Below are positions 26,309 to 44,519 of a stretch of DNA of 64,000 bases, piece after piece (the first letter of the stretch is position 1; every line of letters starts with the position of its first letter). The stretch is from positions 86,324 through 150,323 of the forward strand of contig NW_004457538.1 in assembly GCF_000313135.1 (NCBI RefSeq), read 5' to 3'. Below the pieces are notes generated by a model. The model did not search any database and was not told where the DNA came from. It saw only the letters and a list, made by a program, of their open reading frames with translations. Origin of the DNA: Acanthamoeba castellanii str. Neff (taxonomy: Eukaryota; Discosea; Longamoebia; Acanthamoebidae). The position numbers and the translations under genes were made by a program.

Positions 26309-26708
26309 CTACCAGTTCGAGTCGGTTTCCCACACCCACGTAAGCACGTTCACCAGATCGCTCAGCGGCACTGGTTGCGACAACTGGCAGCATGACACCA
26401 AGAGCATAGGTCATCACGGAGAGGGAGAGAACAAATGCAATCGTGGAGGGTGAAGATCGTACCTGCCCTCGTGAGGTGACGTCGGTATAGATTACATCGG
26501 GATCGATGCGCTTCTTCTCTTTGGGCTTCTCGCTGTCTTGTGGCGTGCCCCCCTTTTTATCATTGGGCGATTTGTACTTCCATTCATGCCGCAGAGCCGA
26601 CCAGGTCTGCTCGCCGATGTTGACCCAGCCCTCTCTTGGGCCGGCCGCCGATGTCCCACCACTAGGCAGCCCCTGGCAGCTCGCCTGGGCCTCAACCTGT
26701 TGCTCCAT
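26309..26708 (-). CDS. Gag1-like clamp (DUF4050) domain small protein
   Basis: Two exons (26463-26708 and 26309-26383) give 106 residues. Splicing CAG to TTG at the 26384-26462 intron keeps the frame. The N-terminal part has WVNIGEQTWSALRHEWKY, a Lys-rich linker and DPDVIYTDVTSRGQ. Exon 2 encodes LSQPVPLSDLVNVLTWVWET and ends SNW. The PVPLxxxVxxLxxxWE ending is the hallmark of the DUF4050/Gag1-like clamp family known from plants and from fission yeast, where Gag1 restrains TORC1. Whether this protein does the same is inference. The start codon lies only 72 bp from the divergent ELF4-like start, so the two share a promoter. Confidence 0.7.
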
Positions 26709-26780
26709 CTCTTGTACACGAATAATTAAACAATCAATTAATATTGAACCGAAAAAGATTTACCTTTATGGAAAATAAAG
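26709..26780. promoter_or_regulatory. 72-bp shared divergent promoter
   Basis: AT-rich spacer (for example AATTAAACAATCAATTAATA) that separates the start codons of the Gag1-like clamp gene (minus) and the ELF4-like gene (plus). Such a short gap implies a bidirectional core promoter with very short 5' UTRs. Confidence 0.6.
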
Positions 26781-27100
26781 ATGGAAGCAGGCCAGCAACA
26801 ACAAGTTGATGGAGGGAAGGTGGTGCTGCCCATCGGTCAGCTGGCTATGATCGTAGATCAGTTGCAGCGAAGGAACAGCGACCTCATCGCCCACATCTCG
26901 CACAACCAAACATCCCGCGATCCCGCCAAATTGAACGAAAATGTGCGACTGCTGCGCGAGCTTGACTTGAATCTCCACAAGGTACACGTGCCTTCATACA
27001 TGATGGCACAACTAGCTTCAATTTGAGTAAAATTTAATCACAAATGCACAAAAAACAGATCCTTGCTCTCTATCAAGAGATACGATCTCGAATCGCCTAG
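26781..27100 (+). CDS. ELF4 (EARLY FLOWERING 4)-like domain protein
   Basis: Eighty residues from two exons: 26781-26981 (67 codons) and 27059-27100 (13 codons plus TAG). The intron has GT...AG ends and preserves the frame at HK|ILALYQEI. Essentially the whole protein is one helical domain: LQRRNSDLIAHISHNQTSR, then LNENVRLLRELDLNLHKILA and LYQEIRSRIA. The pattern of N-x-x-LI-x-x-I-x-x-N-(H/Q) followed by N-(V)-x-L-(I/L)-REL-(N/D)-x-N-(I/L)-x-K-(V/I)-x-x-LY is that of the plant ELF4 family (DUF1313), a dimeric helical protein of the evening complex. ELF4 in plants acts with ELF3 and LUX in the circadian clock; no partner is seen here. Length, helix spacing and the tight NxxLxREL core make chance unlikely, but only about 55 residues carry the match. 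Confidence 0.72.
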
Positions 27101-42260: not shown

Positions 42261-42331
42261 TGCCAGGACCGGGAATTGAACCCGGGTTGTTGGTACCACA
42301 AACCAATGTACTACCACTATACTATCCCAGC
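42261..42331 (-). tRNA. tRNA-His (GTG), minus copy
   Basis: A 71-base cloverleaf without intron. The acceptor stem GCTGGGA pairs with TCCTGGC (with G-U wobbles), the D arm contains TAGTGGTAGTA, the anticodon stem TTGGT/ACCAA encloses the loop TTGTGGT with anticodon GTG, and the T arm is CCGGGTTCAATTCCCGG, a good B box. No CCA is encoded and the base before G1 is not G, so the extra 5' G of tRNA-His must be added after transcription. Identical to the copy at 44449. Confidence 0.9.
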
Positions 42332-44448: not shown

Positions 44449-44519
44449 GCTGGGATAGTATAGTGGTAGTACATTGGTTTGTGGTACCAACAACCCGGGT
44501 TCAATTCCCGGTCCTGGCA
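44449..44519 (+). tRNA. tRNA-His (GTG), plus copy
   Basis: Same 71 bases as the copy at 42261-42331: acceptor GCTGGGA/TCCTGGC, anticodon loop TTGTGGT (GTG, histidine) and T-loop TTCAATTC with a B-box consensus. Discriminator A, no encoded CCA. It lies 109 bp beyond the acyltransferase stop and is transcribed in the same direction. Confidence 0.9.

Follow-up and report, generated by a model that had tools for sequence, protein, structure and literature searches.

A spliced, minimal member of the ELF4 family in the amoeba Acanthamoeba castellanii

The 64,000 nucleotide stretch of the Acanthamoeba castellanii str. Neff genome analyzed here (contig NW_004457538.1, positions 86,324 to 150,323, in the following called the window) harbors a short gene at 26781-27100 on the forward strand, whose spliced product P0001 comprises 80 residues, contains the core NENVRLLRELDLNLHKI as originally claimed, and belongs to the ELF4 family (PF07011, DUF1313). 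A true, conserved and spliced ELF4-family gene in an amoeba represents an unexpected lineage for a known family. In plants, ELF4 takes part in the daily clock. ELF3 and ELF4 have been termed plant-specific (PMC6378743) and the ELF4 family was said to be undetected outside plants (PMC8315153), and a secure amoeba member contradicts this plant-only description. In a culturable single cell where no evening complex of the plant type is visible, this minimal ELF4 could open the basic biochemistry of the domain to study apart from the plant clock.

Family membership was assessed with two kinds of profiles. Against the Pfam Elf4 model PF07011, P0001 scored 40.8 bits with an E-value of 2.1e-10 (curated cut-off 27), the match covering residues 25-77 of 80 and profile positions 17-69 of 83, while the second-best Pfam family only reached an E-value of 0.076, under its own cut-off. 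Arabidopsis ELF4 and EFL3, used as controls, scored 133.7 and 135.4 bits. The original prediction had seen the whole length of the protein fitting the family; the assignment itself is confirmed by a significant match and no better family, whereas its extent has to be narrowed to the residues given above. As the Pfam model may itself include amoeba sequences, we made a plant-type-only profile from 132 of 142 proteins, many of them classed as plant-type by sequence only, leaving out the four amoeba-type proteins as well as P0134, P0137, P0138, P0139, P0140 and P0142, which were partial, odd or suspect. This profile scored P0001 at 32.0 bits and its relative P0124 at 32.6 bits, compared to a maximum of 7.7 bits for shuffled controls (1912 of 2000 shuffles scored). 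Applied to the 1022 open reading frames (ORFs) of at least 40 residues in the window, it gave 26.9 bits for the gene's own frame and 4.3 bits for the next. Since the Pfam cut-off is passed and the plant-only profile scores far above shuffles and other ORFs, judged by sequence the membership of P0001 in the ELF4 family is secure, albeit distant, and a chance resemblance was rejected.

Aligned to 11 plant-type proteins, P0001 shows 21-28 % identity with an ungapped core, and V25, N32, L35, I36, N42, S45, N54, V55, L57, E60, N64 and Y72 are invariant in all 12 rows. In the larger alignment A5 (27 rows) all ten invariant columns fall within the predicted helical hairpin. P0001 obtains 30.5 bits with an ELF4-type profile and 32.4 bits with an EFL-type profile, a small difference that places it in neither plant subgroup. 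Thus P0001 resembles plant ELF4 and EFL proteins in being short and single-domain, in its ungapped core with common invariant residues and in its predicted two-helix layout, but it differs from them in its low identity, its shorter length without long tails, its lack of a subgroup assignment and an intron within helix 2.

Relatives were sought in a database of 5.8 billion proteins. With the window protein as query only P0002 and P0003 were retrieved (two of three candidates), both Acanthamoeba-like metagenomic sequences that are 92 % and 97 % identical over the aligned parts. P0124, a 58-residue protein from a likewise Acanthamoeba-like metagenomic contig of the Joint Genome Institute, shares 43 of its 58 residues with P0001. 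All three carry automatic Pfam labels, so the databases already flag the domain. Arabidopsis ELF4 as query gave 254 matches, and every named source among the 120 listed is a plant. A search targeting short proteins of approximately 31-99 residues, which longer protist homologues could escape, returned 21 matches, comprising the three amoeba-like sequences, nine plant-named ones, one labelled Staphylococcus aureus and eight others that, in our reading of their sequences, are of the plant type. The Staphylococcus aureus record P0142, located on a 238-bp contig, also has a plant-type sequence; its label most likely reflects contamination and it was treated as such. No homologue was confirmed on viral contigs with P0001 (13 pattern matches) or alignment A5 (98 pattern matches), nor on prokaryote genome contigs with P0124 (109 pattern matches). 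The proposed search for other protist homologues therefore yielded the three Acanthamoeba-like metagenomic sequences as the only non-plant-type homologues found, everything else being plant-type. Among the matches listed in a search of the open-licence literature in PubMed Central (PMC), none is visibly on ELF4 in amoebae.

The host genome was searched exon by exon in the 38.4 Mb assembly of 250 contigs, with the best candidates being scored. Over 84 residues, a cofilin-type frame found there shows full identity to actophorin (PDB 1ahq), a protein of Acanthamoeba castellanii, in line with the amoebozoan origin proposed from the sequence alone. Searches with the family, P0001 and P0124 all led to one Elf4 locus.

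The gene model originally proposed is exact in its coordinates, with ATG, GT donor, AG acceptor and stop codon all present (Table 1), and several lines of evidence support the joining of its two exons. Exon 1 runs over 201 bases up to the GT donor at 26982. Among 173 GT/GC-AG combinations, the 12 best of which were listed, this splice obtained the top score with the plant-type profile (32.0 bits versus 28.1 bits for the second), and the PF07011 score drops from 40.8 bits for the spliced product to 33.6 bits upon read-through into the intron. The GC content of the intron is 35 %, compared to 54 % in exon 1 and 45 % in exon 2. P0124 spans the splice junction as NLHKILALYQEFGMRIA and ends on the same C-terminal residue as the window protein (RIA-stop), whereas P0002 and P0003 depart from the family directly after K67 and continue into sequence of the window intron. 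The tail of P0003 ends in DGTSSFNLSKI, which matches DGTTSFNLSKI of the window intron in a different frame; the intron has thus taken insertions or deletions that would be intolerable for a coding stretch. As the relatives shift frame within the intron, the unspliced frame was ruled out as coding. Splice score, the P0124 junction, the divergence of P0002 and P0003, and base composition agree, arguing for a real intron. The plant-type protein P0139 leaves ELF4 sequence just past NIAKVV, close to the amoeba intron site, and an intron position common to both is possible. An out-of-frame upstream ORF at 26768-26809 (+), starting with the ATG at 26768 and ending in TGA, overlaps the start codon of the ELF4-like gene; possibly it is not transcribed with the gene, or it may reduce translation.

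Table 1. Features of the ELF4-like gene and its divergent neighbor, in window positions.
Feature	Position	Strand	Remarks
ELF4-like exon 1, residues 1-67	26781..26981	+	ATG at 26781; PF07011 match begins at residue 25
ELF4-like intron	26982..27058	+	GT-AG, 77 nucleotides, phase 0; AG acceptor ends at 27058
ELF4-like exon 2, residues 68-80 and stop	27059..27100	+	42 bases; second half of helix 2
Gap between divergent start codons	26709..26780	.	72 bp, A+T-rich
Gag1-like clamp exon 1	26463..26708	-	PF13259, spliced
Gag1-like clamp intron	26384-26462	-	
Gag1-like clamp exon 2	26309..26383	-	PF13259, spliced

Structure prediction with AlphaFold2 was carried out for P0124, a relative rather than the window protein itself, and for the plant-type protein P0004. 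P0124 is predicted to fold into two antiparallel helices (2-21 and 26-57) with a mean predicted local distance difference test (pLDDT) score of 92.3, and P0004 likewise shows two helices (26-59 and 62-98) at a pLDDT of 73.9 with poorly predicted ends. Both are predicted to be all-alpha, devoid of beta structure. The predicted two-helix layout of the amoeba type hence resembles that of plant ELF4; sequence searches of solved structures gave no relative at E<=1, and the fold comparison with solved structures returned generic helical hairpins with no standout family.

Plant ELF4 was found to be a dimer on native gels and to bind the middle domain of ELF3, raising the nuclear level of ELF3, according to a review (PMC6378743). 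The Acanthamoeba nuclear gene encodes an ELF4-family protein reduced to its core, one predicted antiparallel helical hairpin, which by analogy may self-associate as plant ELF4 does and act as a small adaptor binding, stabilizing or localizing a larger, probably disordered partner, in the way plant ELF4 acts on ELF3. A small self-associating helical adaptor is the most likely working of the window protein, and we consider it probable that a true ELF4-family core hairpin serves a larger partner in this manner. With less weight, its job would lie outside a clock of the plant type, as the exon-by-exon genome searches detected neither a GARP-type LUX nor a CCT domain (TOC1/PRR) above cut-off.

Directly upstream, on the opposite strand, lies a second two-exon gene, separate from the ELF4-like one. 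Its spliced product of 106 residues, unlike the ELF4-like protein, reaches 31.2 bits with PF13259, the Gag1-like clamp model, and so clears the cut-off of 22.8. In the genome search with PF13259 this neighbor locus was the sole match, by its exon 2 alone and at 18.5 bits, below the cut-off. The gap between the two start codons is possibly a shared promoter, which could tie the ELF4-like and Gag1-like products together, or the arrangement could reflect mere crowding; the Gag1-like neighborhood is only a lead.

Turning to function, the lead offered by this neighborhood is that both products jointly control protein kinase CK2. The head-to-head start codons and the PF13259 match of the neighbor would suit this idea, as would yeast Gag1, which directly binds the CK2 catalytic subunit Cka2 and was modelled as a clamp competing with the regulatory subunits (PMC10700138). 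We nonetheless regard joint control of CK2 as unlikely, as closely spaced divergent genes might be frequent where a genome is compact, and the literature consulted showed no connection of ELF4 with Gag1. Somewhat less credit still can be given to a component of a circadian or light-entrained amoeba clock that works as in plants. The label of a clock-domain protein describes the plant relatives. In favor of a clock role are the family membership of P0001 and one gene detected, on another contig (L003:1402-2610, 48.8 bits), in a whole-assembly search for SHAQKYF-class Myb proteins (TIGR01557). This sole representative, however, has a THAQKYY motif, a type that we read as CCA1/RVE-like rather than GARP or LUX-like. 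A search of the genome with the LUX DNA-binding domain matched only at this same site (E 0.08), and no GARP-type LUX was detected in the assembly, although an intron-split domain could escape such a search. The best CCT candidate in the genome stayed at 17.1 bits against a cut-off of 28.4, and none of the papers listed in the literature search is visibly on an Acanthamoeba clock. One ELF3 motif, used without a positive control, had no match in the genome, a result that carries no weight. Compared to the ELF4-ELF3-LUX evening complex of land plants, only the ELF4-type subunit is recognizable in the amoeba; a plant-type evening complex is not visible in the genome, although one may be present, and a clock function of the window gene is unsupported. 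Least probable of all is that the hairpin arose by chance or convergence, with no relation to ELF4, or that the frame has no function. The simplicity of the fold would make convergence conceivable, but the profile score far exceeds those of shuffles and other ORFs, the curated Pfam cut-off is passed and relatives keep the exon sequence and not the intron, by which this explanation is close to refuted.

Two accounts of the gene's origin have to be weighed. As a plausible though tentative scenario, the ELF4 hairpin predates the split of amoebae and plants, serving as a non-clock adaptor, possibly linked to CK2, that plants later recruited into the evening complex. Somewhat doubtful, but by no means far-fetched, is an old horizontal transfer from a green alga or plant to an Acanthamoeba ancestor, followed by intron gain and the adoption of a host function. 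Such a transfer would be consistent with matches outside the amoeba-type sequences being plant-type only, and with a DUF1313 protein reported in Chlamydomonas; for Ostreococcus no ELF4 is reported (PMC5638080; PMC3017809). In a tree of 28 rows, however, the two amoeba-type sequences are separate from all 26 plant-type rows with a support of 100/100, although this tree is unrooted, lacks algal rows, has an unsettled bootstrap and includes P0124 and P0139 as long rows. The nearly equal scores of P0001 with both plant subgroup profiles and the existence of a 74 %-identical relative weigh against transfer as well. These counterpoints exclude no more than a transfer that is both recent and from flowering plants, and the searches are weak for protists. 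The branch between amoeba and plant-type rows, with several changes per column, is saturated, and the tree argues against a flowering plant as a recent donor but is otherwise indecisive. Ancient inheritance and old transfer are indistinguishable from these data.

Some further observations were made along the way. The THAQKYY-type Myb constitutes a second relative of a plant clock family in the genome. Near the ELF4-like gene lie a RasGEF domain, at 128.4 bits, and a stretch with weak OTU-like similarity (16.4 bits, below the cut-off of 23.3). The window also carries two tRNA-His(GTG) genes on opposite strands, at 42261-42331 (-) and 44449-44519 (+), approximately 2 kb apart.
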